Shown here one piece after another: positions 1,755 through 26,887 of a stretch of 52,617 nt of DNA; position 1 is the first letter of the stretch; each line of letters starts with the position of its first letter. Source of the DNA: Flavobacteriales bacterium (GTDB lineage Bacteria > Bacteroidota > Bacteroidia > NS11-12g > UBA955); contig CANHRE010000008.1 in the NCBI GenBank assembly GCA_947463095.1, positions 1 to 52,617 on the forward strand, read 5' to 3'. The notes below the pieces were generated by a model that saw only the letters and a list, made by a program, of their open reading frames with translations, was not told the origin of the DNA and did no database searches. The translations under genes and the position numbers were made by a program.

Positions 1755-2443
1755 ACAACCTGGCCATCATAGCGGCAAGGGGCGGGAGCAAACGCATTCC
1801 CCGCAAAAACATCCGGAATTTCCTGGATAAGCCCGCGCTATGCTGGCCGGTGAATGCTGCCAAAGCATCGGGCTGCTTCAACACGGTTATGGTGAGTACC
1901 GACGATGCCCTGATTGCCGATACGGCCAGGGCCTGCGGTGCCGAAGTGCCCTTCCTGCGCGAAGCAGCGTCTTCCGGCGACCATGCCACCCTTGCCGATG
2001 TACTCAAGGAAGTGCTGGATGCCTACGCCCTGCGCGGACAGCATTTTGACTTAGTGGGCTTGTTTCTGGCCACGGCCTTCTTTGCCGACCCCGCCATGAT
2101 TCGCCAGGCCTGCGCCTCCCTGCAACAGAATGTCGCCGATGTGGTGATGCCTGTATTGCGCTTTCCTTATCCTGTGCAGCGTGCCCTGATAAAAGACACA
2201 TCCGATTTTATGGACTTCATGCATCCGGAACACGCGCTGACCCGCAGCCAGGACTTGGAAGAGGCCTACTACGACAGCGGGCAGTATTACCTACTCAGAG
2301 CAGCGTCATTTGCGCAAAGCGGTCGCATCATTGCCGGAAGGGTGAAGGGTATGGAAATACCCTGGCATGCCGCCGTTGACGTGGATGAAGAATCCGACTG
2401 GATTCGGGCGGAGCAACTGGCAAAAGCCTTCGGTAAGCCATGA
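1751..2443 (+). CDS. pseF: pseudaminic acid cytidylyltransferase
   Basis: This 230-residue enzyme activates pseudaminic acid with CTP to give CMP-Pse, the donor used by glycosyltransferases. The N-terminus holds the CMP-sialate synthetase signature IIAARGGSKRIPRKNIRNF, followed by VMVSTDD. The start is a TTG at 1751 that overlaps the pseC stop as TTGA; it is the only start that keeps the nucleotide-binding loop near the N-terminus, because the motif begins within six residues. The end overlaps pseG by four bases (ATGA). Sequence alone cannot fully separate a Pse from a Neu/Leg cytidylyltransferase, but the surrounding pse genes decide it. Confidence 0.93.
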   Translation: MNNLAIIAARGGSKRIPRKNIRNFLDKPALCWPVNAAKASGCFNTVMVSTDDALIADTARACGAEVPFLREAASSGDHATLADVLKEVLDAYALRGQHFDLVGLFLATAFFADPAMIRQACASLQQNVADVVMPVLRFPYPVQRALIKDTSDFMDFMHPEHALTRSQDLEEAYYDSGQYYLLRAASFAQSGRIIAGRVKGMEIPWHAAVDVDEESDWIRAEQLAKAFGKP

Positions 2444-3423
2444 CGACCAGCATCTACCTGCGCGCCGACGGAGGTCCGCAAATGGGTTGGGGTCATGTGA
2501 ACCGGATGTGTTCGCTGGCGGCCATCATGAAAGGGCAGGCACCGGTGGTGGCTGTTGCTACGGAAGCAGGGGCTAAAGTGTTTCAACATAACAACAGCGC
2601 TTTTGCAGCGGTGAAAACGCTTGACGCCGACGCTGCAGGCCACTGCTACTCGGAATGGGAAGGAGTGAATACCGAAAATTCCATCCTGGTACTGGATGGA
2701 TATCAATTTGACTATACATATCAGCAGCAGGCCAAAGCCCTTGGTTTTCGGGTGGTGCTGATAGACGACTTTGCCCTCGGCCCTTTTGCCGCAGATATGA
2801 TCATCAACCACGCGCCTGAAAGCCGCAGTCGCTACAGTCAGGAGGGAATCAGGTTTTGCTGCGGAACAGATTACGCGCTGCTGCGCCCGTCTTTTTACCA
2901 GCGCTTTAAGGAGCAGCCGCGCCGCAAGCAACAGGTCCTCGTTACCCTGGGCGGTGCTGACCCGCAGGCGCTGACCGGGCAACTGCTGAACCGCTTGCTG
3001 CCTGAACATCGTAACCTGAACTGGGTGGTGGTATGCACCGACAGCTTTGCACCGGAACACAGGCAACAACTGGAACAGATGGCGGCAGGCAGCGAACATA
3101 TGACCCTGGAATACAATGTTTCTGAAGAAGGCATGCACAGGCTTATGATGCAAAGCAGCCATGCGCTGGTTTCTTCCAGCACAGTGGTGCTGGAGGCCTG
3201 GGCATCAGGGCTGTATCCTGCAGCATTATGCTATACCGAAAACCAGCGCATCATGTTTGAAGGGGTTTGCAATGGCCACTTGGCTTTCCCCTTGCAGGCA
3301 GCTACGGCGCAAAGCGGTTTCCGCGAATACCTTCAAACAACACCTAAGGAACAGGACGGCATGGAAGGCTGGAATCCGCCTGCTGCCATCCGTAATGCCT
3401 TTCAACAACTCATGCACGCATGA
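2440..3423 (+). CDS. pseG: UDP-2,4-diacetamido-2,4,6-trideoxy-beta-L-altropyranose hydrolase
   Basis: PseG is a GT-B-fold hydrolase that releases UDP from UDP-6-deoxy-AltdiNAc to give the free sugar used by PseI. The N-terminal LRADGGPQMGWGHVNRM segment carries the G-x-GH loop with the histidine that is typical of this family. LVTLGGADPQ opens the C-terminal domain, and HALVSSSTVVLEAWASG fits the UDP-binding half. At 327 residues it is of usual length for a stand-alone PseG; some relatives carry a fused acetyltransferase, which here is separate (pseH at 7010). Four-base overlaps join it to pseF and pseI. Confidence 0.92.
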   Translation: MTTSIYLRADGGPQMGWGHVNRMCSLAAIMKGQAPVVAVATEAGAKVFQHNNSAFAAVKTLDADAAGHCYSEWEGVNTENSILVLDGYQFDYTYQQQAKALGFRVVLIDDFALGPFAADMIINHAPESRSRYSQEGIRFCCGTDYALLRPSFYQRFKEQPRRKQQVLVTLGGADPQALTGQLLNRLLPEHRNLNWVVVCTDSFAPEHRQQLEQMAAGSEHMTLEYNVSEEGMHRLMMQSSHALVSSSTVVLEAWASGLYPAALCYTENQRIMFEGVCNGHLAFPLQAATAQSGFREYLQTTPKEQDGMEGWNPPAAIRNAFQQLMHA

Positions 3424-4463
3424 ACAAAACAACCTTCAACGAATTACAGATTGGTCCTGAATTCAGGCCCTTCATCATTGCGGAGCTAAGCGGCAACCAT
3501 AATGGCGAGCTCGAGCGGGCACTGCGCCTGATTGATGCCGCTGCCGATGCCGGTGTGCAGGCGGTGAAGCTGCAAACCTATACCGCAGATACCATTACCA
3601 TGCCGGGAGTATATCGCATTGAAGACCCCAACTCGCTGTGGTATGGCAGAGATTTATATGAATTGTATGAGGAAGCCTTTACGCCCTGGGACTGGCATCC
3701 GGCATTATACGCCCATGCCGCCTCCAGGGGACTTATATGCTTTAGTTCTCCCTTCGACGAAACGGCTGTTGACTTCCTGGATGCCCTGGGCAGCAAGCTG
3801 TACAAGGTGGCATCCTTTGAAAACACCCATACGCCGCTCATCCGCAAGGTTTTGGCTACAGGCAAGCCGATGATTTTGTCCACCGGTGTGATAGACTGGC
3901 CCGAGCTTGACGAAACCATGCAGTTTATCCGAGGTGAAGGGGCAACCGAGGTGGCGCTGCTCAAGTGCACAAGCAACTATCCATCAGACCCCAAAGATTC
4001 CAACCTGCGGGCCATCCCGCTTTTGGCAGAACGCTATCAAACCCTTACCGGTCTGTCCGACCATACCTTGGGTATTGGCGTGGCCATAGCCTCTATCGCC
4101 ATGGGTGCCTGCATCATTGAAAAACACATCACCCTAGACCGCAGTGAAGGCGGCGTGGATGCCGCATTTTCTCTGGAGCCCGCAGAATTCGCATCCATGG
4201 TTCGCGAAAGCACAGATGCCTGGAAAGCACTGGGTGTGCCGGCTCTGGTAACCCACCCCGGCCAGTTGGGCTCAGCCATATTCAAGCGCTCGGTTTATGC
4301 AGCCTGCGATATTGAAGCAGGATCACCGCTGACCGCCGAAAACCTCAGGGTGATTCGCCCCGCCAAGGGCATCCCCGCGAAACGCTATTTTGACATCTTG
4401 GGTAAGAAAGCAAGCCGGCATATTGCCAAGGGAACACCCATCCGGGAAGATTTCTTTTCTTAA
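3420..4463 (+). CDS. pseI: pseudaminic acid synthase
   Basis: A NeuB-family synthase of 347 residues that condenses 6-deoxy-AltdiNAc with phosphoenolpyruvate to form pseudaminic acid. The TIM-barrel part opens with FIIAELSGNHNGELERAL and has VKLQTYTADT, SSPFDETAVDFL, KVASFE and LKCTSNYPS, followed by LSDHTLG and the metal-binding region around IIEKHITLDR. The C-terminal ~60 residues (IRPAKGIPAKRYFDILGK onward) are the SAF/antifreeze-like domain that closes the active site of the partner subunit. The start overlaps pseG by ATGA. A 33-base AT-rich gap separates it from the amidotransferase that follows. Confidence 0.95.
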   Translation: MNKTTFNELQIGPEFRPFIIAELSGNHNGELERALRLIDAAADAGVQAVKLQTYTADTITMPGVYRIEDPNSLWYGRDLYELYEEAFTPWDWHPALYAHAASRGLICFSSPFDETAVDFLDALGSKLYKVASFENTHTPLIRKVLATGKPMILSTGVIDWPELDETMQFIRGEGATEVALLKCTSNYPSDPKDSNLRAIPLLAERYQTLTGLSDHTLGIGVAIASIAMGACIIEKHITLDRSEGGVDAAFSLEPAEFASMVRESTDAWKALGVPALVTHPGQLGSAIFKRSVYAACDIEAGSPLTAENLRVIRPAKGIPAKRYFDILGKKASRHIAKGTPIREDFFS

Positions 4464-4496: not shown

Positions 4497-5651
4497 ATGA
4501 TAGACCTCAGATACTGCAGCCGTTGTGTATTTCCAGAATCAAAGCCGGATTTGTTCTTCGACGATAACGGCGTGTGCAGCGCCTGTATCGGCGCTGAAAA
4601 AAAGGCCAACGAAATAGACTGGGAACAGCGCCGCAAGGATTTCTTCAGCATCGTTGAGCATTACCGCAAGCCTGAAGGACAGTCGGGCTGGGATTGCCTG
4701 GTGCCCGTGAGCGGCGGTAAGGACAGTACCTATCAGGCCTGGTTTCTGAAGTACGAGTGCGGCATGAATCCTTTGTGCGTATGCTTTGAAACCACCAACA
4801 TCACTGAGCTGGGCCAGCGCAATCTGGACAACCTTTCGGATATGGGGATGGATGTGGTGTACTTCAAGAAAAGCCACCCCGCTTACAAGAAAATGGTGGT
4901 GGAAGGCTTTAAACGGGTGGGCGATGAAATGTGGCCCAACCACCTGGGCATTTTCACCATTCCGGTGATGGTGGCCGTGAAGTTTGGCATACCGCTGATC
5001 GTGTGGGGTGAGAATCCTCAAAAGGAATATGGAGGCCCTCTGGAAAGCATCAAAAACAACGTGCTGGACAGGGCTTGGCTCGAAGAATTCGGTGGCTTAC
5101 TGGGTAACCGTATCCAGGATATGGTAGGTGTTGATGGCCTTACAGAACGCGAACTCACACCCTATTTCTATCCTTCAGAAGAAGAATTGAAGAAGGTGGG
5201 TATTGTTAGTGTTTTCCTGGGCCACTACTTCTTCTGGGACGCCAGAAGGCAACTGGAAATTGTAAAGCAACATGGGTTTTCTGTTAAAGAAGACGGCCCG
5301 GTGGAAGGCACTTATACAAACTACGAAAACCTGGATGAGAAGATGCACGGTCTGCATGATTACCTCAAGTTTGTGAAATATGGATTTGGCCGCGCCACCG
5401 ATCATGCCTGCATTGACATCCGCAACAACCGCCTTACCCGCGATGAAGGGCTTAAACTGGTGAAGCAATACGACGGTAAATACCCGCACCTCAGCATCAA
5501 TGAGTTTATCACATACTCAGGTATGAGCAAGGCGGAAATTGACGCCATCGTTGACTCCTTCACCAATCCTTTGCTGTTCGCCAGGGATGAACAGGGCGCA
5601 TTTTTGAAAGACGAACAAGGCAACCTGATCCGCAACTACGAAGTTCAATGA
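4497..5651 (+). CDS. N-acetyl sugar amidotransferase (PseA/WbuX/WbpG type)
   Basis: A 384-residue PP-loop ATP pyrophosphatase family enzyme. Homologs (WbpG in Pseudomonas, PseA in Campylobacter) turn an N-acetyl group into an acetamidino group with ammonia delivered by a HisH/HisF pair. Two CxxC pairs at Cys7/Cys10 and Cys27/Cys30 look like a zinc site, and the ATP loop SGGKDS is at residues 72-77. The gene sits between pseI and pseH and overlaps hisH by four bases, so the likely substrate is pseudaminic acid or its precursor. The substrate assignment is inference from context. The 33-base upstream gap has no clear Shine-Dalgarno, as is common in Bacteroidota. Confidence 0.9.
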   Translation: MIDLRYCSRCVFPESKPDLFFDDNGVCSACIGAEKKANEIDWEQRRKDFFSIVEHYRKPEGQSGWDCLVPVSGGKDSTYQAWFLKYECGMNPLCVCFETTNITELGQRNLDNLSDMGMDVVYFKKSHPAYKKMVVEGFKRVGDEMWPNHLGIFTIPVMVAVKFGIPLIVWGENPQKEYGGPLESIKNNVLDRAWLEEFGGLLGNRIQDMVGVDGLTERELTPYFYPSEEELKKVGIVSVFLGHYFFWDARRQLEIVKQHGFSVKEDGPVEGTYTNYENLDEKMHGLHDYLKFVKYGFGRATDHACIDIRNNRLTRDEGLKLVKQYDGKYPHLSINEFITYSGMSKAEIDAIVDSFTNPLLFARDEQGAFLKDEQGNLIRNYEVQ

Positions 5652-6253
5652 GTTGTGTAATCATCAACTACGGGATGGGCAATCTGGCTTCTGTGTCAAA
5701 AGCGCTGCGGAAAATCGGCGTGGAGCACAGTATTTCTGCCAATCCCGAAGAGGTGATGCGCGCACAATCCCTCGTGCTGCCCGGCGTGGGATCTTTTCAG
5801 GCGGCCATGCATAATTTAAACGCCTCCGGCTTGTCCGATGCCATCCGGCAGCGCATGAACAGCGGCGATGCCAAACTGATAGGCATTTGTCTGGGCATGC
5901 AGCTGCTGGCCGATACGGGCTTTGAACCGGAACGCTGTGCTGGCCTTGGTTTGATTCCCGGTGAAGTGGTTGAGCTGGAATGCAGCTTGCCAGTGCCACA
6001 TATGGGCTGGAACAATCTGGACGTGCGCAACCCCCTGTATTTTCAGGACCTGCAGGACCTGGACTTCTATTTCGTGCACAGCTATCATTTTAAACCAGCC
6101 CATGAGGCTGATGTAGCTGCACTTACAAACTACGATGGCCCCGTGGTGGCAGCCGTGCAACGCGGCCCCGTGTTTGGCTGTCAGTTCCACCCGGAAAAAA
6201 GCCAGCTCTCCGGATTAAAAGTACTTGAACACTTCTTCACCAAACATGCTTAA
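5648..6253 (+). CDS. hisH: HisH-type glutamine amidotransferase subunit (glycan paralog)
   Basis: A class I glutaminase of 201 residues that would hydrolyse glutamine and pass ammonia to its HisF partner. The nucleophile elbow GICLGMQLLAD, the FVHSYHF strand and the GCQFHPEKSQ segment supply the Cys-His-Glu triad, so it looks active. It overlaps the sugar amidotransferase (ATGA) and the hisF that follows by eight bases. No other his genes are nearby. I therefore read it as the ammonia supplier for sugar amidination (WbuY-like) rather than for histidine synthesis, although use in both cannot be excluded from this window. Confidence 0.9.
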   Translation: MSCVIINYGMGNLASVSKALRKIGVEHSISANPEEVMRAQSLVLPGVGSFQAAMHNLNASGLSDAIRQRMNSGDAKLIGICLGMQLLADTGFEPERCAGLGLIPGEVVELECSLPVPHMGWNNLDVRNPLYFQDLQDLDFYFVHSYHFKPAHEADVAALTNYDGPVVAAVQRGPVFGCQFHPEKSQLSGLKVLEHFFTKHA

Positions 6254-7010
6254 AATACGCATCATCCCCGTATTAACCTTTAATGGTTTTGCGCTGGTGA
6301 AGACCAAGCAGTTCGGAAATCCGCGCATGGTGGGAAACCCCATCCAGGCCGCAAGGGTGTTCAACAGCCGAAATGTGGATGAATTGGTATTCACCGACAT
6401 CACAGCTACCTACAGTGGAAGAAAAATCAACCTGCCTTTTGTGAAGGAAGTGATTGATGAATGTTTCATGCCCGTTACCATAGGCGGAGGCATACGCAGC
6501 CTGGAAGATATTAACGACCTCCTGAAGATTGGCGCCGACAAGGTTTTGGTGAAGAATCTGGCCATCTCCGACCGCAACTTCATAGCACAGGGTGCGCGCA
6601 TGTTCGGTGCTCAGTGCATCAGCGTGGCCATAGATGCCCGCAAAACAGGTTCCGGAAGCTGGGAGCTTTACCGCAAAACACCTACCGGCCTTGATGCCGT
6701 AGAGTTTGCAAGAATGGTAGAACAGGAAGGCGCCGGCGAAATTGTTCTGACCTCGGTAGACCGTGATGGCATGATGCATGGTTTTGATACCGACCTGGTA
6801 AACAGTGTACTCGAGGCCGTGAACATTCCCGTGGTAGCCGTGGGCGGCGGCGGTAGCCCCGATCACTTCCTGGAGCTGTTCCAAAAAACCAACGTCAAGG
6901 CGGCCGGAGCTTCGGCCATCTTTTACTTTACCCAGTTCACTTCTTACGACATCAAAAAGAAGCTGGGTGACCACGGTTTTCCAGCCCGATTTATGGCAGC
7001 CGGCAACTGA
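6246..7010 (+). CDS. hisF: HisF-type cyclase paralog (ammonia channel for sugar amidotransferase)
   Basis: A (beta/alpha)8-barrel protein of 254 residues. The start is the ATG at 6246, inside the end of hisH; an in-frame upstream TTG would only add seven non-conserved residues. Family marks include DELVFTDITAT, PVTIGGGIRS, VAIDARKTG, EIVLTSVDRDG and the phosphate-binding VAVGGGGS. Canonical HisF has an essential Asp at position 11 (IPCLDV); here the sequence is IPVLTF, giving Thr11. Asp in VAIDAR, equivalent to Asp130, is kept. Loss of Asp11 is expected in paralogs that only channel ammonia to a sugar amidotransferase (WbuZ type). The stop overlaps pseH by one base. Confidence 0.9.
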   Translation: MLKIRIIPVLTFNGFALVKTKQFGNPRMVGNPIQAARVFNSRNVDELVFTDITATYSGRKINLPFVKEVIDECFMPVTIGGGIRSLEDINDLLKIGADKVLVKNLAISDRNFIAQGARMFGAQCISVAIDARKTGSGSWELYRKTPTGLDAVEFARMVEQEGAGEIVLTSVDRDGMMHGFDTDLVNSVLEAVNIPVVAVGGGGSPDHFLELFQKTNVKAAGASAIFYFTQFTSYDIKKKLGDHGFPARFMAAGN

Positions 7011-7492
7011 TGATACAAAACCTACATTTTCGTCCTGCCGCCCCTGAAGATTGTACGCTGGTGTATGCCTGGTTTCAGGATCCCATCACCCGCGCCAACT
7101 CCTACAGCAACAATCCTGTTAGCCTGGAAGAACATACGCGCTGGTTTGAAGCCAGAATTCAACAAACGCAGGCGCCCTATCTGATGTTCTATGGCGAAAA
7201 CCAGCCGGAAACACTCATCGGGCAGGTGCGCATCGACATGAAAGCCGAAGGGCCGGTCATCGGCATTAACCTGGCGCCCGAGCACAGGGGTCGCGGATAT
7301 GCAGCGCCCATGTTGCGTATGGCTGCCGAATATTTTTGCAAGAACAACCTGCATCATACACCGATACGGGCATGGATTATGGATCATAACACCGCTTCAC
7401 GTAAAGCATTCGAGGCGGCAGGGTTCAGTTTTGATCATGGAGCAATGGTTTCCGGAATACCAAGCAGGTTATACCTTTATAAACCGCAATGA
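7010..7492 (+). CDS. pseH: UDP-4-amino-4,6-dideoxy-N-acetyl-beta-L-altrosamine N-acetyltransferase
   Basis: A GNAT-fold acetyltransferase of 160 residues. It would acetylate the C4 amine made by PseC, completing the diacetamido sugar that PseG hydrolyses. The N-terminal half has FRPAAPEDCTLVYAWFQDP and the substrate loop NSYSNNPVSLEEHTRWF, close to the PseH pattern. The acetyl-CoA loop appears as APEHRGRGYAAPMLRMA, and IRAWIMDHNTASRKAFEAAGF is the terminal GNAT motif. The start overlaps the hisF stop (TGATG) and the end overlaps the next gene by ATGA. With this gene, all six pse enzymes are present. Confidence 0.88.
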   Translation: MIQNLHFRPAAPEDCTLVYAWFQDPITRANSYSNNPVSLEEHTRWFEARIQQTQAPYLMFYGENQPETLIGQVRIDMKAEGPVIGINLAPEHRGRGYAAPMLRMAAEYFCKNNLHHTPIRAWIMDHNTASRKAFEAAGFSFDHGAMVSGIPSRLYLYKPQ

Positions 7493-8976
7493 AAGTAGTA
7501 GTTTTTAGCACCCATATCATCTGGCCGCAGCATTACGAAACGGAACTGGAAATCATGCAAAACCACCTGGACCAGGGGCATGAAGTAGTTCAGTTGGTAT
7601 GCAACGGCAGCTACGGCATCTGCGACGCCAACCTGGACCACAGCATGTTCAGATGCATGTTCTGTGTGAGCCGAAGAAAAAAAGGTATTTCGTTGCTGGA
7701 AGGAAAGGTGCGTACCAGAGAGGTTCTGGATTATGTGAGCGAAGCCGAAAGGGATGAAGCCGCACAGGTTCGTCACTCCTTCGATTCGCTCGACCACCTT
7801 CAGGAATATCATATCGGCAACTATCCCATCGGATATGCGGTAGGTTCTACCCTGGTTTCCATCCTGCGCGACTCTACCCTTGACGTGAGCAGCAACAATA
7901 CCAGGCTGCGCAATCTGCTGGCCCATGCCGCTTTGACCTATGCAGCCTGCAAAAACTTCCTGAAGGAAGAAAAGCCTGATCTGGTCTATGTGTTCAACGG
8001 CCGTTTGCCTAATCCCAGGGCCATGCTCAGCGCCTGCACAGAGTCCGGTATCGATTGCTTCATCCATGAACGCGGCTACAACTGGATGCACTATGAGGTG
8101 TTTAAAAACCGACTTCCCCAGGACCACCTGTTCATTCAGGAGCTGGTGCGGGAAGCCTGGGAACAAACCCCTGAGCCTGAGCGTTCAGAAACAGGAAATC
8201 GCTTTTACACAGAGCGTAGGAAAGGGCAGGAGCAGGGCTGGTTTTCATTTGTGAAAGACCAGAAAGAAGGCAATATGCCCGATGAGTGGGATGTGGAGCA
8301 GCACAATATCGTGATATTCAACTCCAGTGAGGATGAGTTTATCAGTTGTACCGACGACTGGAAGAACAAGCTCTACATGAACCAGTACAATGCCATCCGC
8401 AAAATATGCAGGGAACTGGAACAGCATCCCGATGTGCGGGTTTACCTGCGTTGCCACCCCAACCTGAAGGGGGCCTCGGAAGCCGAAAAGAATGAGCTGG
8501 AATCCATGAAACTGGAACGCCTGGTGTTTATCGCGCCGGAGTCGTCTATTTCTACCTATGCGCTGCTGGATAATGCTTCAGTGGTGCTCACCTTTAATTC
8601 TACAGTGGGCATTGAGGCTACCTTTTGGGATAAGCCATCCATTCTGGCTGGTCCGAGCCTGTACGACCAGCTGGGCAGCAACTATATTCCCACCACCCAC
8701 GAGGAAGTGATGGAGTTGCTGCTGCGCCGCGATCTACCACCCAAAGGCAAACTAGGTGCGCTGATGTATGGTTATTTTTTCAACTCTTTTGGGAAACCCT
8801 TCCGTTATTTCCAACCTGAACACTTTTCAGGAGGCACCTTTAGGCAGGTGGACCTGATGAAGCCGGTATGGAAATACACACTGCCCAAAACACTGATAGA
8901 TAAAGACCCCTCAGGTCTGAGCTCCCGTTTGATAAACCGCTTATTTCAAAAGCGCATTAAGGGATTTTCTCAATAA
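7489..8976 (+). CDS. capsule-type GT-B glycosyltransferase, candidate pseudaminyltransferase
   Basis: A 495-residue protein with no membrane segment or signal peptide. It starts MKVVVFSTHIIWPQHYETEL, an N-terminal Rossmann strand, and has a cysteine-rich stretch near residues 38-64. The C-terminal half resembles capsule synthesis and CDP-glycerol type transferases: VIFNSSEDEF, a VRVYLRCHPNLKG strand, and VVLTFNSTVGIEATFWDKPS, the typical (S/N)S(T)xGxEA nucleotide-binding end. It is translationally coupled (ATGA) to the last pse gene, so a role in moving pseudaminic acid from CMP-Pse to the growing glycan is a reasonable inference. The donor is not proven by sequence, and other capsule sugars are possible. 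Confidence 0.7.
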   Translation: MKVVVFSTHIIWPQHYETELEIMQNHLDQGHEVVQLVCNGSYGICDANLDHSMFRCMFCVSRRKKGISLLEGKVRTREVLDYVSEAERDEAAQVRHSFDSLDHLQEYHIGNYPIGYAVGSTLVSILRDSTLDVSSNNTRLRNLLAHAALTYAACKNFLKEEKPDLVYVFNGRLPNPRAMLSACTESGIDCFIHERGYNWMHYEVFKNRLPQDHLFIQELVREAWEQTPEPERSETGNRFYTERRKGQEQGWFSFVKDQKEGNMPDEWDVEQHNIVIFNSSEDEFISCTDDWKNKLYMNQYNAIRKICRELEQHPDVRVYLRCHPNLKGASEAEKNELESMKLERLVFIAPESSISTYALLDNASVVLTFNSTVGIEATFWDKPSILAGPSLYDQLGSNYIPTTHEEVMELLLRRDLPPKGKLGALMYGYFFNSFGKPFRYFQPEHFSGGTFRQVDLMKPVWKYTLPKTLIDKDPSGLSSRLINRLFQKRIKGFSQ

Positions 8977-8993
8977 AGTTAACATCTGAATCC

Positions 8994-10868
8994 ATGCCCC
9001 TTATTTCGGTGAATATCCCCCTGTACAATCGGGAAGCCTATATAAAGGCTTGTCTTGAATCTGTGCTGGCGCAGTCCTTCACCGACTTCGAGGTAGTGGT
9101 GTTGGATGATGCGTCTACCGATGCTTCGGCAAGCATTGTAAAGTCATTTCGGGACCCCCGTATCCGTTATTACCGCAACGAAAAAAACCAGGGCATCAGC
9201 GCCACGCGCAACCGCCTGGTAGCGCTTTCTCAGGGGGAATATATTGCTGTGCTGGACAGCGATGACCTTGCCGAGCCCGAGCGACTGATGCAGCAGCTTG
9301 CTGCTTTTCAAAAGGACCCTTCCCTGAGCCTGGTGGCCGGATGTGCCGCTGTTATAGACGCCGATGGTCAACCCACCGGGCAGGTATGGGGCAGCGCACT
9401 CAGCCCGGAAGCCTGCGCCGCACGCCTTCCGTTTTCAAATACCATCCTGCATTCTACTCTGATGGCTAAGAAGGCCTTCCTGGAAGCATTCCCCTACGAT
9501 GCCCAATACAAGAGCGCAGAGGATTATGATGTGTGGCTGCGCGGCGCCTCGGCCGGACACCGTTACCGGGTGCTGGCCGCGGTATTGAGTAAATACCGTG
9601 TTCACGGCAGCAGCGAGAGCATGTTCTTCAGCAGAGAAATACGGCAAAACACCTTGATGGTGGTCAGCGCCCATTGGCAACGCCTGCTCGGAACAAATTT
9701 CGATGATGCTACGCGGGAAGCTTTGGACGACCTGCTGTATAGAAAGGGAACGGCACTTCAAAACCCGAAGTTGAGTTTCGACCTGCTGCACGGATTGTAT
9801 GCGCAAAAGGCTGAAAACGCGCGTTTTTCCCATGCCTTAAACAAAGAAATTTATTACTGGTGGCGTACTGCCATCTACCGATTGCCGCGGTTCACAGTTA
9901 AAAACTGGTTTATACTCCGAAGTCCATTGCTCCGCCTCATGGCAGTGCGCGAAAAAACAGCAATCATCATCAAATGCATATTATTTAAACATAACATTCT
10001 CATGGCCCCATCTCATAATCAGAGAAAACTGGTGTACGACATTGGTTTTCATGATGGGCAGGACACAGCCTATTACCTCAAAAAAGGATATAAGGTAATA
10101 GCCGTAGATGCCGATCAGTCTCTCATTGCCAAAGGCAAGGAACATTTCGCAGGCACACTCAGCTCCGGGCAACTTACGCTGGTGGGTAAAGCAATTTATG
10201 AGCACGACAACCGTGAGGTGGAATTCTATATTTCCGACAACTCGGAATGGAACAGCCTGAACCGCGACTTTGCCGGCCGGAATGAGCTTGCTACCAGAAC
10301 GGAAAAAGTGAGTACCATCAGGCTGGACAGCCTGATAGCTGAACATGGAAGGCCCTACTTCCTGAAGATAGATATTGAAGGTTACGATGTGTTCGCCCTG
10401 CGCACCTTGTCGCCAGAGATGGCCCCGGAGTACATTTCGGTAGAAGCGTTAAGCCTCACGGCAACCCATGTGCCGGATGAGGATGAATCATTGGCCACGC
10501 TTAGGGAACTGCAGCGCCTGGGCTATCAGCGGTTCCGCCTGATAGACCAGACGGAGTTTGCAGCCATGGAGCCCGACAAACCATTTTATGGGGTTAATCG
10601 CTTTGCCAGAGAACCTTTCTGGGCAGGTATTCTGCGCCGTTTTCTGATGAAGCGAGGCTACAGGCTTAAGCGTTACAGCAACAGGGATTGGATTAATGCC
10701 CGCTGCAATCATCATTTCGAATACGGATCGGCAGGGCCCCTGCCGGAGGAACTTGACGGCAGATGGCTGAATGCTCAGGAAGCCGCCAAGGCGCTGCGTT
10801 ACCAACTGGCAGACGCAGTAAAACAGGGCCTGACCGGCTTTTGGGTTGACTGGCATGGAAGAAAATAA
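8994..10868 (+). CDS. GT2 glycosyltransferase fused to an FkbM-type methyltransferase
   Basis: A 624-residue two-domain protein. Residues 1 to ~240 are a GT-A family 2 domain: ISVNIPLYNREAYIKACLES, VVLDDASTD, and the metal-binding DSDD at 88-91. A ~90-residue linker follows. From about residue 340 there is a Rossmann methyltransferase: LVYDIGFHDGQDTAYYLKKG, VIAVDADQSLIAKGKEHF and FLKIDIEGYDVFALRTL near 456-472, which match the FkbM family. The last ~100 residues are basic and unassigned. An in-frame ATG at 10002 (residue 337) sits just before the methyltransferase, so an internal start is possible. It would add a sugar and perhaps O-methylate the product. Confidence 0.82.
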   Translation: MPLISVNIPLYNREAYIKACLESVLAQSFTDFEVVVLDDASTDASASIVKSFRDPRIRYYRNEKNQGISATRNRLVALSQGEYIAVLDSDDLAEPERLMQQLAAFQKDPSLSLVAGCAAVIDADGQPTGQVWGSALSPEACAARLPFSNTILHSTLMAKKAFLEAFPYDAQYKSAEDYDVWLRGASAGHRYRVLAAVLSKYRVHGSSESMFFSREIRQNTLMVVSAHWQRLLGTNFDDATREALDDLLYRKGTALQNPKLSFDLLHGLYAQKAENARFSHALNKEIYYWWRTAIYRLPRFTVKNWFILRSPLLRLMAVREKTAIIIKCILFKHNILMAPSHNQRKLVYDIGFHDGQDTAYYLKKGYKVIAVDADQSLIAKGKEHFAGTLSSGQLTLVGKAIYEHDNREVEFYISDNSEWNSLNRDFAGRNELATRTEKVSTIRLDSLIAEHGRPYFLKIDIEGYDVFALRTLSPEMAPEYISVEALSLTATHVPDEDESLATLRELQRLGYQRFRLIDQTEFAAMEPDKPFYGVNRFAREPFWAGILRRFLMKRGYRLKRYSNRDWINARCNHHFEYGSAGPLPEELDGRWLNAQEAAKALRYQLADAVKQGLTGFWVDWHGRK

Positions 10869-16593: not shown

Positions 16594-17835
16594 ATGGCGC
16601 AGCGCGAAAAGCACGCAACACGGCATCTGGTATATTTCGTCGAGGAAATAGAAACCTCGTTTGTGATTCACGACCTGATTAACCTGTCACAGCGTTTTGA
16701 ACACATCTATCTGTTCTGCGGAAATAAGATTCCTGACAAGAGCAAAGTGCCCGCCAACGTGCAGCTATATGAGCAATACATGGATTGGGGCAGGTACAAC
16801 ATGCTCAGGCTGCTGCTTACGAACTTCTTCTTCGTGTTTAACGTGCTGGCTGCCGAAATGTGGAAGGCGAAGAAGTTCATCCCTGTCAGAAAAAATCTAT
16901 CCTCCCTGTTGCTGAACATATTCAAGGCCGATGCAGTGTATGCGCAGCTGAATGCGGCGGGCCTGGGCAAGGAGGAGTTGATGCATGCCCCCTTTTATGC
17001 GTTCTGGTTTTATGATACCAGCTACCTGGGCGTGCTCAGACAGAAATACGGCATACGCAAAACCATCGCCAGGGCGCACAGTGGCGATTTGTACGAAGAC
17101 CATGCATCAAGGGTAAAGCGCTCGGATCTGCGCCATTTTCAGTTGGACAACCTGAGCTATTTGCTGCCTGTTTCCAGGCAGGGCGCGGAGTATATGGCTA
17201 CCACCTATCCCGCCTACCGCCTCAAAATACATACCGTGTATCTGGGTACCAAGGATGGGGGCACCAATCCGCACCAGCCTGAAGGGCTCACCCTGGTAAG
17301 CTGCGCCCGCTTTAACTACCATAAGCGCCTGGATAAAATTGCTCAGGCACTGCTGAACACCCATGTGCCCATCACCTGGATTCATATTGGCGATGAACGG
17401 CTGGGCCAGGATATCCAGGGCATGTCCGAATACCTCAAGTTGAGAAAGCAATTGGAAGCGCTGCCCAATGTTCAGCTGCGTCCAACGGGCGCTATGGACA
17501 ATGCCGATATTTTCAACCTGTACCGGCAGCAGCCGGTGAGCCTGTTCATTAGCCTTTCAGAGAACGAAGGCATTCCGGTAAGCATTATGGAAGCCATCAG
17601 CTTTGGTATTCCGGTGATGGCTACCGACGCCGGAGGCTGTCGCGAAATTGTAAACGAAAAAACAGGCGTGCTGCTGCCCGTGGATGTAAGCGTTGAAGCA
17701 GTGGGGCGCAACCTGGACGCATTTGCCAACGCTGCCTTGAATAACCCAGAGTTCAGAAACCAGGTGCGCCGATTCTGGTCCGGCCACTTCTCGGAAGAAC
17801 ACAACTACCAGACACTCATGAACTATTTATGCTGA
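16594..17835 (+). CDS. GT4 family glycosyltransferase
   Basis: A GT-B transferase of 413 residues. The C-terminal half contains LVSCARFNYHKRLDKIAQAL, ITWIHIGDERLG and the nucleotide-sugar site SLSENEGIPVSIMEAISFG followed by PVMATDAGGCREIV, the classical GT4 E-x7-E pattern. The N-terminal half has a hydrophobic stretch near residues 72-90 that may contact the membrane. The ATG at 16594 is 13 bases after the previous stop. A 45-base gap separates it from the second sugar amidotransferase. Donor and acceptor are unknown. Confidence 0.86.
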   Translation: MAQREKHATRHLVYFVEEIETSFVIHDLINLSQRFEHIYLFCGNKIPDKSKVPANVQLYEQYMDWGRYNMLRLLLTNFFFVFNVLAAEMWKAKKFIPVRKNLSSLLLNIFKADAVYAQLNAAGLGKEELMHAPFYAFWFYDTSYLGVLRQKYGIRKTIARAHSGDLYEDHASRVKRSDLRHFQLDNLSYLLPVSRQGAEYMATTYPAYRLKIHTVYLGTKDGGTNPHQPEGLTLVSCARFNYHKRLDKIAQALLNTHVPITWIHIGDERLGQDIQGMSEYLKLRKQLEALPNVQLRPTGAMDNADIFNLYRQQPVSLFISLSENEGIPVSIMEAISFGIPVMATDAGGCREIVNEKTGVLLPVDVSVEAVGRNLDAFANAALNNPEFRNQVRRFWSGHFSEEHNYQTLMNYLC

Positions 17836-17880: not shown

Positions 17881-19038
17881 ATGCAGGCTGAACAACCCAT
17901 ACAGCAAACCTGTACCCACTGCCTGCTGAGCAGTGCCGATACTGAAGTAATCAGCTTCAATAACGACGGTGTTTGCTCCTATTGCACCGGCTACGAACAA
18001 ACCATCAGGGCGTTCAACAAACATGCAGACGCTCCTGAAGTACGGTTAAACCGTATGGTTTCAGACATGAAGGCCAAAGGCCAGGGACAGCGCTACGACT
18101 GCATCCTGGGGCTGAGCGGCGGAACCGACAGCACATACCTCGCCTGGTGGGCACATCAGCAAGGCCTGAGGCCGCTGGTGGTGCATATGGACAATGGTTG
18201 GAACAGCGAACTGGCCGTGAAGAATATTGAGAACATCTGTACCCGCCTCGGCTGGGATTTACATACCCATGTGATCGATTGGGAAGAGTTCCGCGAGTTG
18301 CAGCTGGCCTATTTAAGGGCCGGTGTTATAGATATCGAGGTGCTTACCGACCACGCCATCTATGCCGTGATATACAGGCTGGCACGCAAGTACAACATCA
18401 AATACACCCTGAATGGCTTTAACTATGCCACCGAGGCCATCATGCCTAAAGGCTGGACATACAATAAACGCGATTACGAAAATATTCGCGATATATACAA
18501 GAAATATGGAAGCGGTAAAAAGCTGAAAACCTATCCGCACCTGGGCTTTTCGGGTGCATTATGGTACCACCTTTTCCTGAAAATTGAGAACGTAAATGTG
18601 CTGAATTACCTACCCTACAACAAGGAAGAGGCAAAGAAAATCATCACCGCCGAATTGGGCTGGCGCGACTATGGAGGCAAGCACTTTGAAAGTGTATTTA
18701 CCAAGTTTTATCAGATATACATTTTGCCTGGAAAATTTGGCGTGGACAAGCGCAAATGCCACCTTTCCAACCTGATTTGTTCCGGACAGATTACCAGAGA
18801 ACAGGCGCTGGAAGAACTGAAGATGCCCCTGTACGACGAGGCCGAACTTCGCGATGAGAAACAGTTTGTGCTTAAAAAATTTGGCCTCAGCGAAACAGAA
18901 TTTGATGCCATCATGAACGGTCCGGTGCGCAAACATGAAGCCTTCAAAACCGATAAGGTGTTGTGGCAGCGCTATTTTAAATTCATCGGCCTGTTGAACG
19001 GCTGCTTAAAGGCAATCGGACTCAGGCGCAAGTCCTGA
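17881..19038 (+). CDS. second N-acetyl sugar amidotransferase
   Basis: A 385-residue paralog of the enzyme at 4497. It keeps the two cysteine pairs (Cys11/Cys14 and Cys32/Cys35) and the PP-loop SGGTDS at residues 79-84, with Thr replacing Lys of the first copy. Other family blocks are LVVHMDNGWNSELAVKNI and LSNLICSGQITREQALEEL. No hisH/hisF pair lies beside it; the pair at 5648-7010 might serve both enzymes. It is followed by a PIG-L deacetylase. This suggests a second amidino-type or related modification in the glycan, on a sugar other than that handled by the first copy. The substrate is unknown. Confidence 0.85.
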   Translation: MQAEQPIQQTCTHCLLSSADTEVISFNNDGVCSYCTGYEQTIRAFNKHADAPEVRLNRMVSDMKAKGQGQRYDCILGLSGGTDSTYLAWWAHQQGLRPLVVHMDNGWNSELAVKNIENICTRLGWDLHTHVIDWEEFRELQLAYLRAGVIDIEVLTDHAIYAVIYRLARKYNIKYTLNGFNYATEAIMPKGWTYNKRDYENIRDIYKKYGSGKKLKTYPHLGFSGALWYHLFLKIENVNVLNYLPYNKEEAKKIITAELGWRDYGGKHFESVFTKFYQIYILPGKFGVDKRKCHLSNLICSGQITREQALEELKMPLYDEAELRDEKQFVLKKFGLSETEFDAIMNGPVRKHEAFKTDKVLWQRYFKFIGLLNGCLKAIGLRRKS

Positions 19039-19087
19039 GGGCTGTAAATTGTAACATCGAATAAATTCAAATACATCCCCACGAACC

Positions 19088-19726
19088 ATGATTGAAATAA
19101 AGAATACAAGAGTTTTGGTGCTTGCACCACATACCGATGATGCAGAACTTGGTTGCGGAGGTACCATTGCAAAGCTTCTGGATCAGGGTAATGAAGTGCA
19201 CTGTGCAGCCTTCTCCGCCTGCCAGCAATCTGTCCGACCGGAATTCCCCCCGGACATCCTGATCCGCGAAGTGAGGGAAGCATCGTCGCTGCTGGGTATT
19301 CCGGAACAAAACCTGCATCTTTTTGATTATGAAGTCAGAACCTTCAACTTCCGGAGGCAGGACATCCTGGATACCATCCTGACATTGAAAAAGAAAATTG
19401 ACCCCCAGGTGGTGTTTATCCCTTCGGTGAATGATGTACACCAGGACCATTACACCATAGCACAGGAAGGATTGCGCGCCTTCAAGCTCTGTATTTTATT
19501 CAGCTATGAGCTTCCTTGGAACAACCTTACCTTTCAATCAACCAGCTTTTCCATCCTGAGTGAAGCCCATCTTGAGCGCAAGATTGCGGCCATCAAGGCC
19601 TATAAATCGCAGTCCCACCGCGCGTACATGACCGACGAATTCATTCGGGGCTGGGCGCATATGCGCGGAGTGCAGATTCAGGAGCGTTATGCCGAGTGTT
19701 TTGAGATGGTGCGCATGAAATTTTGA
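19088..19726 (+). CDS. PIG-L family N-deacetylase
   Basis: A 212-residue zinc deacetylase of the PIG-L/LmbE family, whose members remove acetyl groups from GlcNAc-like sugars or related substrates. The zinc and catalytic motif is visible as LAPHTDDAELGCGGT (His15, Asp17, Asp18), and the second zinc motif as VHQDHY near residues 117-122. Most relatives have PHPDD; Thr16 here is a mild variation. No signal peptide is seen, so it should act in the cytoplasm on a nucleotide- or lipid-linked sugar. It begins 49 bases after the second amidotransferase, in the same direction. Confidence 0.87.
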   Translation: MIEIKNTRVLVLAPHTDDAELGCGGTIAKLLDQGNEVHCAAFSACQQSVRPEFPPDILIREVREASSLLGIPEQNLHLFDYEVRTFNFRRQDILDTILTLKKKIDPQVVFIPSVNDVHQDHYTIAQEGLRAFKLCILFSYELPWNNLTFQSTSFSILSEAHLERKIAAIKAYKSQSHRAYMTDEFIRGWAHMRGVQIQERYAECFEMVRMKF

Positions 19727-23297: not shown

Positions 23298-24563
23298 TTG
23301 ATCAAGGCAGTGGAATCTGACCCTATACTTATTTTAACCGGGAAACTTGGCACCAGGCATGGGGTGGGCGGCAGACGCTGGGCGCTCTTTGGCCGCAGCA
23401 TGCTTTCTGCCGGAATCAATGTGCAGATCGTTACCGCACAACAGGACATTCCCGAAGAGTTTATTGATTACAAGGATCATGTACACCGATTCAATTCTTC
23501 CTATCCGGTAATTCTTCAAAAAGGCCCCAGCAGTTTTATTGGCAAGCTTTACTATCGTATGGCCTTGATGCTGATGAAATTAAGGGTACAAGGAACTGTT
23601 TATGATACCGGTGTTCTGGATATACCTCGGCTGCTTGATCTGTCGCGCAACATCATCAGAAATCACCATATTAAATACGTGGTGTGCACGGGGGCACCCT
23701 TCAGTTATTTGTACTGCGGGGCACTGCTGAAAAAGGAATTCCCTCACCTGGTGCTGTTAAGTGATTTCCGCGACCGGTGGACCATCGGCTTTCATTACGG
23801 CATCAGCGCCCTGAAACCAAGGCGCTTCGCCTTTGAAGTTGCGCGGGAAAAGGAGGTGCTTCAAGCCTCCGATGTGGTAACGGCCGCCTGTCCTGATATC
23901 ATTGCCTACCTTGCCGCTATCTGTCCCGGAAACTACCACCTCATCCTAAACCCCGTTTCTGACCTGCTGAATCCGGTGGTCCCGGAAAATGCCGCTGCCA
24001 ACAAAGCCTTTACCATCACCTGCGCGGGGAACATAGGCCGTGGCTGTGAACCGGTATTCGAACATTTCCTCGATAATGTAAAAGTACTAAATGAACGTTG
24101 TCCCGGACAGTTTCGATTCGTATTTATAGGCAACGGCGACAAAGAAATGGAGCTGATTATGAACCGCACCCCGCTGCCCAATATGGAACGTCACCCCTAC
24201 ATGGAACAGGATCAGTTGGCAACCTACCTTTCAGCATCCCACGCGTTTTTGCTGTTTCAAAGGCCGGAAATGGTGAACAGTGTGGCTACCAAAGTGTTCG
24301 ACTATATCAAATTCCGTAAACCGCTTATCGCCTGTATTGGTCCCGGTATGTTGAGCGACATCATGAAACAGGGGCAACTTGGCTACATCATGGACCGGAA
24401 TCTGGATGCCGAAACCTTTGTTTCAGATATGATCAAGTTGAAGGATGGTAAATGGCCTTTTAATAAAGACTTTGACTACTCCGAATACACACTGGATTAT
24501 CAGGTGCGGAAGGTATTAAACATCCTTTCAGCAGCTGGAAAGAACAAAGAAGCACCTCGATAA
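23298..24563 (+). CDS. GT4-like glycosyltransferase, paralog B
   Basis: A 421-residue paralog of the gene at 21107. Shared blocks are GVGGRRWALFGRSMLSAG, CTGAPFSYLYCGALLKKEFP and SDFRDRWTIGFHYG. The C-terminal half has FTITCAGNIGRGCEP, FRFVFIGNGDKEMELIM and SASHAFLLFQRPEMVNSVAT. The start is either the TTG at 23298 or the GTG at 23310; no ATG lies near. The pair probably arose by duplication and now adds two different or successive residues, which is inference. It is separated from paralog A by an inverted acetyltransferase gene. Confidence 0.75.
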   Translation: MIKAVESDPILILTGKLGTRHGVGGRRWALFGRSMLSAGINVQIVTAQQDIPEEFIDYKDHVHRFNSSYPVILQKGPSSFIGKLYYRMALMLMKLRVQGTVYDTGVLDIPRLLDLSRNIIRNHHIKYVVCTGAPFSYLYCGALLKKEFPHLVLLSDFRDRWTIGFHYGISALKPRRFAFEVAREKEVLQASDVVTAACPDIIAYLAAICPGNYHLILNPVSDLLNPVVPENAAANKAFTITCAGNIGRGCEPVFEHFLDNVKVLNERCPGQFRFVFIGNGDKEMELIMNRTPLPNMERHPYMEQDQLATYLSASHAFLLFQRPEMVNSVATKVFDYIKFRKPLIACIGPGMLSDIMKQGQLGYIMDRNLDAETFVSDMIKLKDGKWPFNKDFDYSEYTLDYQVRKVLNILSAAGKNKEAPR

Positions 24564-24630
24564 GTACTGTTTCCTGCCGAAAATCAGGCTTATGAATGGA
24601 GAAACATCAGATAGTCCGTGGAGCTCTTCT

Positions 24631-24638
24631 TAAATTTG
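24631..24638 (+). promoter_or_regulatory. Bacteroidota -7 promoter element
   Basis: TAAATTTG, a perfect TAnnTTTG match, ends 14 bases before the ATG of the cupin-like gene, predicting a very short leader. No convincing -33 TTTG is present, only a G/T-rich segment upstream. Confidence 0.5.
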
Positions 24639-24652
24639 CATAAACAATCACC

Positions 24653-25657
24653 ATGAGCGCTCAGCTTTTTGAACACCATCCATACATAGAGCAGTTGAAA
24701 AAACTCAATCAGACCTATGAAAATCGTGCTGAATTCCACAGCCACGCAGGTGCTATTCTGCAGGAAATGGGTGCAGATAAGGAGTTTTTGAAAACAGTGG
24801 TCAAGCGGAATTTCGATGATGAAGGCTACAAGACTCAAGTTTGGAGTCAGTATAACATCCCATTCCTGTATATATATGAATGCACGGATTTTCATCTGAA
24901 GATACATTTCTTTCCGGCCATGAAAGACTTCACAACTGGTCAGGCCGCGCATTGCATCCACCACCACAACAACTACATCCTTACCACTGCCGCTATTTAT
25001 GGCAGCGGTTATGAAACCATGTTGTTTGATAAAAAGGTAGAGGTGGATGAAAAAACACTGGAAACACGGATGCGTGTAGCAAAGCACTTTACCCAACAGG
25101 AGCACCCTGTACACACCATCGATGCCTGGGAACCCCATGTGGTATTCATGCCTCCGGCCTACAGCACCACGCTGCAGCTGTGGACAACCGACAAAAAACG
25201 CACTACCGATGGGCTGCGCAGCAATCCCATCCTCAAAGCCCTTAAAATGCCCATTCGTAAGGTGATTTATTGGTGCGGTCTGGATCGCGCAGTGGGCATT
25301 TCCGCGCAAAAAACCTATCAATGGTATCCGGAAGGCGATCATTTCAAAGCCATCCTGGAAGATGAATACTTTGGTCCAACAAGAAATGCTAAGGGCCCTG
25401 AGGTAGATCTGTGGAGCATGCAAAACGTGTTCATCTTCATCCAGCGTATGGGCATTGCCGATATGGACTACCTGCGCGAAGTGCGGCAGCGCGCCGACAC
25501 GCCGGTGGCTTATCTGCCTTGGCTGGATATGTTGCTCGCGGGGGAACTGATTCCCGATACCTGGCACCGCGACAGCATCAACATCCCCCGTAAAACCTAT
25601 CGGGCAGAAGATATCTACAGCGCTGCCCACATGGAGCCGCTGCCCATCAACGGCTGA
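24653..25657 (+). CDS. uncharacterised protein with cupin-like histidine motif
   Basis: A 334-residue soluble protein that I do not assign to a named family. Near residues 100-125 it has AAHCIHHHNNYILTTAAIYG followed by GYETMLFD, and later VHTIDAWEPHVVFMPPAYST. Together these look like the two metal-ligand halves of a cupin barrel (HxH...E and a later His), as in cysteine-dioxygenase-like proteins. The C-terminal ~100 residues are rich in Trp, Tyr and acidic residues with no motif I know. It has its own promoter element and sits between two transferases, so it may modify a sugar or a lipid-linked intermediate. The function is open. Confidence 0.6.
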   Translation: MSAQLFEHHPYIEQLKKLNQTYENRAEFHSHAGAILQEMGADKEFLKTVVKRNFDDEGYKTQVWSQYNIPFLYIYECTDFHLKIHFFPAMKDFTTGQAAHCIHHHNNYILTTAAIYGSGYETMLFDKKVEVDEKTLETRMRVAKHFTQQEHPVHTIDAWEPHVVFMPPAYSTTLQLWTTDKKRTTDGLRSNPILKALKMPIRKVIYWCGLDRAVGISAQKTYQWYPEGDHFKAILEDEYFGPTRNAKGPEVDLWSMQNVFIFIQRMGIADMDYLREVRQRADTPVAYLPWLDMLLAGELIPDTWHRDSINIPRKTYRAEDIYSAAHMEPLPING

Positions 25658-25682
25658 TGTTCGCCTGCAAGCGGGCTTAACG

Positions 25683-25690
25683 TACCTTTG
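25683..25690 (+). promoter_or_regulatory. Bacteroidota -7 promoter element overlapping the gene start
   Basis: TACCTTTG matches TAnnTTTG exactly. A TTG start at 25688 would lie inside it, whereas the GTG at 25697 is six bases downstream, near the expected transcription start. This favours the GTG and suggests a leaderless or nearly leaderless transcript. Confidence 0.45.
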
Positions 25691-25696
25691 CTGTCC

Positions 25697-26887
25697 GTGC
25701 GCATCATCTATTTTTCCCCCCATCCTACGCATGACATTGTAAGCGAAGTTGGCTACAGCACACACCAGCGAGAAACCATCAAGGCGTTTAAAAACCTGGG
25801 TCATGAGGTGCTGCCTGTGGTGATGGGTGGTACCATCCCCGAACAGAAAAAACAATTTACGCAGGAAGGACCCCGCCGGTCTTTGAAAGAATTGTTGAAA
25901 AAACGCCTGCCCGCCGTGTTTTACAATGCCCTGAAAGATGCAGGTATCCGTAGGTTCGACCGCCAGGCTGCGGCAAAACTCGAAGAAGCTGTACAGCACT
26001 TTCATCCGGACCTGGTGTATGAACGAAGCGAATACATGCAGGATTCCGGAATGCGCATATGCCGCAAAGCCGGTATTCCGCATTTTCTTGAGGTGAATGC
26101 GCCCTTCATGGAAGAAATGCGCCACTGGGAAGGCAACTCACTCCTGCACCCGCTGGGCCATGCCATAGAAAAGCGGAAAATACATGCCGCCACGAAGGTG
26201 TTTGCGGTATCTACCTCGCTCCGCGACTTCCTGGCCCGCCGTTATCAATACCCCGCTGCGCAAATCAGCGTCATCCCTAATTGTATCGATCCGGAATCAG
26301 TAATGTTGGATCCGGCCCATGCCGACGCCTTGCGCCAGCAATGGAATTTATACGGTAAACAGGTGGTTGGATTTGTGGGGTCGTTTTTCCCGCATCATGG
26401 ACTTGACGACCTCATTAAGGCCTTTGCGCCGGTTGCACAGGAATTCCCCGATGCCGTCCTGCTCATAGTTGGTGGCGGCATGAACGAAGAAGCCCTGAAA
26501 CAACAGGCTACCAAAACCCTCGGACAGGGAAGGGTCATCTTTGCCGGAAAGGTTCCGCACAGCAGCGTATACCATTACATCTCCCTGATGGATGTTACCG
26601 TTATGCCCAAAAGTAACTGGTATGGCAGTCCGATGAAAATATTCGAATACGGCATCCTGGGCAAAGTGGTGGTGGCACCAGATAATGGCCCTGTGAATGA
26701 TGTGATGACCCACGGCAAGGACGGCTGGCTGGTACAACCCGGGGTTCCGGCGCTGGCCGATGCCCTGAAACACCTGCTTGCCCACCCGGCGCTCAGAACG
26801 GAAATGGGCGCTCATTTCAGAGATAAAATCCTCAACACTTATACATGGAATCAGCAGGCAGCATACATCCTGAGCCATTTCGCATAG
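25697..26887 (+). CDS. GT4 family glycosyltransferase
   Basis: A GT-B transferase of 396 residues. From the GTG at 25697 it begins (V/M)RIIYFSPHPTHDIVSE, the expected first strand. Later motifs are DLVYERSEYMQDSGMRICRK, ISVIPNCIDPESV, VVGFVGSFFPHHGLDDLIKA and LLIVGGGMNEEAL. The nucleotide-sugar site reads VTVMPKSNWYGSPMKIFEYG, with VVVAPDNGPVNDVM after it; this is the MKxFEYxA-type GT4 subfamily. It overlaps the next gene by 43 bases. The donor is unknown. Confidence 0.86.
   Translation: MRIIYFSPHPTHDIVSEVGYSTHQRETIKAFKNLGHEVLPVVMGGTIPEQKKQFTQEGPRRSLKELLKKRLPAVFYNALKDAGIRRFDRQAAAKLEEAVQHFHPDLVYERSEYMQDSGMRICRKAGIPHFLEVNAPFMEEMRHWEGNSLLHPLGHAIEKRKIHAATKVFAVSTSLRDFLARRYQYPAAQISVIPNCIDPESVMLDPAHADALRQQWNLYGKQVVGFVGSFFPHHGLDDLIKAFAPVAQEFPDAVLLIVGGGMNEEALKQQATKTLGQGRVIFAGKVPHSSVYHYISLMDVTVMPKSNWYGSPMKIFEYGILGKVVVAPDNGPVNDVMTHGKDGWLVQPGVPALADALKHLLAHPALRTEMGAHFRDKILNTYTWNQQAAYILSHFA

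Follow-up and report, generated by a model that had tools for sequence, protein, structure and literature searches.

Transferases of pseudaminic acid (Pse) are hard to predict from sequence. A proven one is KpsS1 (GT118) of Acinetobacter baumannii, a retaining Pse5Ac7Ac transferase. KpsC (GT107) and WbbB (GT99) are retaining Kdo transferases. In the accessible part of PMC12887879, CMP binding by sialyltransferases and by GT99/107 is attributed to a (K/R)XHP motif, the nucleophile is placed in a QXXXD motif, and the general base of KpsC is given as Glu66; the structure 8csb is assigned there to WbbB. In Tannerella forsythia, a wzx-like gene is followed by pse genes in some strains and by leg genes in others, gtfS being located farther downstream (accessible parts of PMC6120980 and PMC6388019). 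The BFO_1060 family (NCBIfam NF046086) is probably that of the T. forsythia GtfS-type Pse/Leg transferases, as indicated by a length of 445 aa and by the motifs given in the accessible part of PMC6388019. A literature search, judged mostly by titles and abstract starts, returned no report of a nonulosonate transferase with a cysteine cluster.

The gene considered here is carried by a 52,617-nucleotide stretch of a Flavobacteriales genome (hereafter the window; the genome is denoted G000). Its 495-aa product, which we label GT_Q, is encoded at positions 7489-8976 of the plus strand from an ATG start codon and is a candidate nonulosonate (Pse) transferase. GT_Q is not a chance ORF, since homologues at 23-40% identity exist in other genomes. 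It closes the run pseB (3′ part)-pseC-pseF-pseG-pseI-wbuX-hisH-hisF-pseH-like. An earlier, sequence-only reading had described a 495-residue protein joined by a four-base overlap to a pse operon ending in pseH. The ORF and the overlap are confirmed, the upstream ORF ending at 7492 and sharing the bases ATGA with the start of GT_Q. The operon is confirmed as well, with PseC, PseF, PseG and PseI all above their NCBIfam cut-offs. All genes of the run are on the plus strand. The first, pseB (10-573), is cut by the contig start and was recognised by homology to PseB-like ORFs of related loci. It is followed by pseC (585-1754; TIGR03588, 477.7 bits), by pseF, encoding the CMP-Pse synthetase (1751-2443; TIGR03584, 220.5 bits), by pseG (2440-3423; TIGR03590, 160 bits) and by pseI, encoding the pseudaminic acid synthase (3420-4463; TIGR03586, 420.4 bits). 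Then come the gene of a wbuX/pseA-type N-acetyl sugar amidotransferase (4497-5651; TIGR03573, 367.5 bits) and the two other genes of the amidation module, a hisH-type glutaminase gene (5648-6253; TIGR01855, 211.2 bits) and a gene for a hisF-type, WbuZ/AglZ-like subunit (6225-7010; TIGR03572, 259.7 bits). WbuX and HisH pass their cut-offs; HisF, with a cut-off of 299.7 bits, does not. The naming of the gene at 7010-7492 as pseH stands in part: its product is a GNAT acetyltransferase resembling PseH (TIGR03585, E 9.3e-13), but its 48.5 bits miss the 93.1-bit cut-off and it is called here PseH-like only.

The pseBCFGI(H) operon would make CMP-activated pseudaminic acid, and because of this operon a Pse derivative is the likely donor of GT_Q. 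Since wbuX, hisH and hisF are inserted within the pse operon both in the window (4497-7010) and in the related genome G395, an acetamidino modification is also probable; the WbuX-HisH-HisF module would most likely add it before transfer. The Azospirillum relative (L026) likewise has a neuB-hisF-hisH-wbuX arrangement, which suggests an amidino-nonulosonate as donor in both cases. On the 3′ side of GT_Q are found a GT2-FkbM fusion gene, more GT2 genes, asnB, GT4-like genes, a second wbuX and a PIG-L gene. The acceptor glycan could be built by the GT2/GT4 enzymes encoded there. Directly after GT_Q, at 8994-10868, Pfam recognises a GT2 domain joined to an FkbM methyltransferase domain. The second WbuX-type amidotransferase and the PIG-L protein are encoded at 17881-19726, with no hisH/hisF of their own adjoining. 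Farther on, at 24563-26845, Pfam recognises nothing in the longest ORF, of 511 aa on the minus strand, which may be spurious.

The cysteine-rich N-terminal stretch pointed out in the sequence-only reading corresponds to a Cys4 element, C-x6-C-x10-C-x2-C (7600-7665, plus strand, codons 38-59). Its four cysteines, C38, C45, C56 and C59, are invariant in 15/15 aligned relatives, and no other cysteine is invariant across them. The element may bind metal, probably in a structural zinc site, and the N-terminal domain that carries it could bind the acceptor; no Pfam match covers this half of GT_Q. The other residues invariant in the alignment are G115, S120, N170, G171, E194, W224, E283, R321, H323, P324, N325, Y357, S371, G374 and E376. 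Several belong to motifs, all on the plus strand: E-R-G (8068-8076, codons 194-196, with E194), R-C-H-P (8449-8460, codons 321-324), and FNSTVGIEATFW (8593-8628, codons 369-380, with S371, G374 and E376). The last one had been taken for the end of the protein; actually, about 115 residues come after it. GT_Q is alone among the 34 contig proteins scanned in having the signature R-x-H-P followed by ST-x-G-x-EA (searched as [KR]xHP, then ST-G-E).

The idea that GT_Q is a glycosyltransferase of the capsule (KpsC/KpsS-like) type is supported, together with the CMP-binding signature R-x-H-P. The Capsule_synth family PF05159 is matched weakly, at 21.2 bits for a gathering threshold of 20, over residues 310-396 only; 9/13 relatives match it with E no higher than 0.01. 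The BFO_1060 family model gives 37.6 bits for a cut-off of 200, over residues 294-394, and GT_Q is therefore not counted as a member; 10/13 relatives match this model, again with E no higher than 0.01. The GT_Q family profile matches PDB entries weakly, best KpsC (E 0.034) and 8csb/5fa0 (E 0.039), the latter being recorded in the PDB as an N-acetyl glucosaminyl transferase. AlphaFold on the single sequence gave a pLDDT of 34.5, and the GT-B fold is putative.

A comparison with known Pse and Kdo transferases, which the sequence-only reading had proposed, revealed similarity to KpsS1, KpsS and KpsC, but without full-length correspondence to KpsS1 and without QXXXD. By profile comparison, GT_Q matches the BFO_1060 family with a probability of 97.1% over 226 columns. 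The probabilities for KpsS1 (95.3% over 109 columns, in the C-terminal half only), for Escherichia coli Nissle KpsS (82.2% over 258 columns) and for Nissle KpsC (74.9% over 89 columns) are less sure because each of these was a single sequence. An unrelated GT4 profile gave 0.2% with GT_Q and 0.1% with KpsS1. The Nissle proteins were named from their place after kdsB and from their sequence, their record saying only capsule biosynthesis protein; KpsS1 was picked out in the A. baumannii pse locus by Y131-E132, which fits the Glu132 given in the accessible part of PMC12887879. As for the BFO_1060 family, it occurs in 10/247 genomes, with NeuB within 10 kb in 8/10 and at 14.5 kb in one (coordinates compared by hand, that of the last one not being listed).

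In the C-terminal domain, R321-C-H323-P324 corresponds to the (K/R)XHP motif, with R, H and P invariant in 15/15 sequences. Together with S371-T-x-G374-x-E376, it would bind CMP. E194, in H-E-R-G, aligns with the E-E-G of KpsS, the same motif as E66-D-G of KpsC, and might thus be the catalytic base. Considering mechanism only, and in a manner compatible with nonulosonate transfer, one may ask whether GT_Q works with retention through covalent double displacement, as the GT99/107/140 enzymes do. The similar C-terminal half and the position of the E-x-G base would fit. However, QXXXD is absent from the C-terminal domain, where the relevant strand reads NIVIFNSSEDEF, the sole QxxxD of the protein being at residue 24. 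Nor do the aligned relatives have an invariant Asp near that place, the only invariant residue nearby being E283 (8335-8337, plus strand, codon 283). Such a mechanism is unlikely. For lack of QXXXD, GT_Q was not assigned to GT99, GT107 or GT140, though (K/R)XHP and a Glu66-type base are present. The absence of QXXXD does not exclude retention, because KpsS1, a retaining Pse transferase, has no QXXXD on the corresponding strand either.

Relatives of GT_Q are rare. A single-sequence search at E 1e-10 found them in 8/395 genomes of the phylum, its own included. Single-sequence search of near relatives gave 5/57 and profile search of the family 6/70. Outside the phylum, they were seen on a cyanobacterial plasmid (NIES-970), on an Azospirillum plasmid and on a 9.2-kb contig labelled phage. 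The 14 other aligned relatives are 23-40% identical to the window copy. A scan of genome contigs gave one match, 88% identical over 124 residues, on the same contig as in G395; the viral contig scans done for structure modelling contained none. The 9.2-kb contig (L027, MT836676.1), labelled bacteriophage, carries GT_Q with ORFs resembling bacterial polysaccharide genes and is possibly a mislabelled bacterial fragment. In G365 (L020:9766-17148), a 2461-aa ORF fuses a GT_Q-like domain with GT2-like domains. Nine partial profile matches (E 6e-7 to 2e-26) were left out of the family count. A nonulosonate synthase lies within 10 kb of five of them (G261, G107, G158, G366, G373) and not of the other four (G226, G078, G035, G260), the view being limited to a 6.6-kb contig in G260 and to 6.7 kb on one side in G035. 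The family so defined is rare and apparently uncharacterised.

Sixteen loci, including that of the window, were viewed for linkage to nonulosonate genes. A NeuB/PseI/LegI synthase is encoded within 10 kb in 11/16: the window, G395, G396, G397, G414, G461, G178, G289, G141, NIES-970 and Azospirillum. In G275 and G283, pseB and pseC adjoin GT_Q and pseI is on another contig, bringing the linkage to 13/16. An ORF between pseB and pseC in G283 (L014:7336-8172) has a TSPPY motif and resembles a DNA methyltransferase. The three loci with no nonulosonate gene in view are those of G341 (a 3.4-kb contig), of the 9.2-kb contig and of G365 (20 kb viewed), whose synthases are on other contigs. The GT4 gene at 16594-17835 served as control. 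With an identical E limit it gave seven matches in genomes other than its own, and a synthase lies within 10 kb in 2/7 of these loci. Against this small control, the Fisher test gives p 0.026 for nonulosonate genes (13/16 versus 2/7), p 0.052 when the window is left out, and a weak p 0.17 for the synthase alone (11/16 versus 2/7). All 8/8 phylum genomes with GT_Q have NeuB, for 235/395 overall (Fisher p 0.024). Among 72,556 plasmid records, GT_Q occurs in two, both NeuB-positive, and NeuB occurs in 91. The expectation that GT_Q would stay with pse genes across genomes is supported in several distant genomes.

It may be imagined that this linkage reflects no more than shared surface-glycan clusters and that the sugar moved by GT_Q is another one of the glycan repeat, taken from a nucleotide diphosphate donor. 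The sub-threshold C-terminal Pfam match to Epimerase_2, the UDP-GlcNAc 2-epimerase family, would agree with this, as would the control GT4 gene lying near NeuB in some of its loci and the downstream GT2/AsnB/GT4 genes, which are also kept in own-family loci. But the genes that loci outside the own family have in common are mainly those for nonulosonates, ABC-type exporters, PIG-L and WbuX. In addition, (K/R)XHP is a motif described in CMP-sugar transferases (accessible part of PMC12887879), and KpsS1 ranks with the best profile matches. A different sugar thus appears improbable, and GT_Q is, on its sequence and context, likely a nonulosonate transferase.

Which nonulosonate is transferred can be approached through the synthases. 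The PseI-type synthases of the window, G178 and G289 pass the TIGR03586 cut-off, and those of G396, NIES-970, G275 and G283 score higher as PseI-type than with a Leg-type query. The G414 and Azospirillum synthases pass the NeuB_NnaB cut-off; the G141 synthase, cut by the locus edge, reaches 385 for a cut-off of 400. G397 and G461 resemble G414, and we take their ptmE/ptmF/ptmA-like genes to belong to the legionaminate route. Within the own family, GT_Q is preceded by a pse cassette in G000, G395 and G396 and by a leg-like one in G397, G414 and G461, and the following GT2 genes are kept whichever cassette precedes. In the tree, the Pse/Leg labels require two changes or more, the Pse-linked copy of G396 clustering with Leg-linked copies and not with the window copy. 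Cassette swaps and tree grouping together indicate that GT_Q follows nonulosonates; the tree alone cannot give the donor. With Leg/Neu-type cassettes replacing pse in G397, G414, G461 and G141, the family is not Pse-specific. Of the pseudaminyltransferase first proposed, the link to nonulosonates therefore holds and the specificity of the family for Pse does not, Pse still being the best donor for the window copy. Homologues without pse genes, which had been named as arguing against the proposal, do occur in part, but they have another CMP-nonulosonate pathway adjoining.

The genome of the window has a second nonulosonate synthase locus, on contig C52 (L078:658-3555), with neuB, neuC-like and cytidylyltransferase (neuA)-like genes. 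GT_Q might serve this other sugar, or accept both. A second neuB-type locus is also present in G396, G397 and G414 of the own family, downstream on the same contig. GT_Q is the only PF05159 match in G000 (95.66% complete), no match to the BFO_1060 family or to the MptE/Maf-like PF01973 was found in this genome, and these searches thus left no transferase for the C52 sugar. No GT52 was found there either, in a search whose control also gave no signal. The other glycosyltransferases of the contig with a Pfam match are GT2/GT4-type. Against service to the C52 sugar, GT_Q overlaps the pse operon, and of the genomes having a single NeuB (G178, G289, G275, G283, G341), the four that were typed, all but G341, have a PseI-type one. 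Such a role is quite improbable. We rather consider it likely, from sequence and gene context, that GT_Q transfers a CMP-Pse derivative, probably acetamidino-modified, onto a surface glycan. In this scheme, GT_Q would be a cytoplasmic GT-B-type enzyme attaching the derivative to the growing glycan; we infer the CMP-Pse donor, the amidino modification, the base role of E194 and the acceptor.

With respect to the described systems, GT_Q shares a half-protein profile with the BFO_1060 family, which has K-x-H-P, S-T-T-A-L-E and E-G motifs and linkage to nonulosonate synthases, but lacks the N-terminal Cys4 element. With KpsS1, it shares the C-terminal nucleotide-binding half and a Pse operon context. 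However, KpsS1 has the Y-E132 base where GT_Q has F-N170 (aligned by eye), YE occurring in GT_Q only at 16 and 202; KpsS1 has K-D-H-K in place of (K/R)XHP and is also without Cys4. The similarity not being full-length and the Y-E base (Glu132) being absent, GT_Q was not placed in GT118. (K/R)XHP, the E of E-D-G at E194 and the S-x-x-G-x-E region are common to GT_Q and to KpsC and WbbB; the QXXXD nucleophile of these enzymes is not, and the sequence matches are weak (PDB E 0.03-0.04). We tentatively suggest, with the odds slightly against, that GT_Q founds a new glycosyltransferase family, composed of nonulosonate transferases with a metal-binding Cys4 in the acceptor domain, switching between Pse and Leg donors along with the cassette and dispensing with the nucleophilic Asp of their Kdo-transferring relatives. 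If nonulosonate transfer by GT_Q and its relatives were correct, the rule Cys4 + FNGR + HExG + RxHPNL + FGSTxGIEA would identify transferases for some Pse and Leg clusters. Moreover, the GT_Q copies of G396 and of G414, G397 and G461, 51-54% identical yet linked to different donors, could teach what sets donor choice. The exchange of cassettes at GT_Q loci is of the same kind as the pse/leg exchange between strains of T. forsythia.
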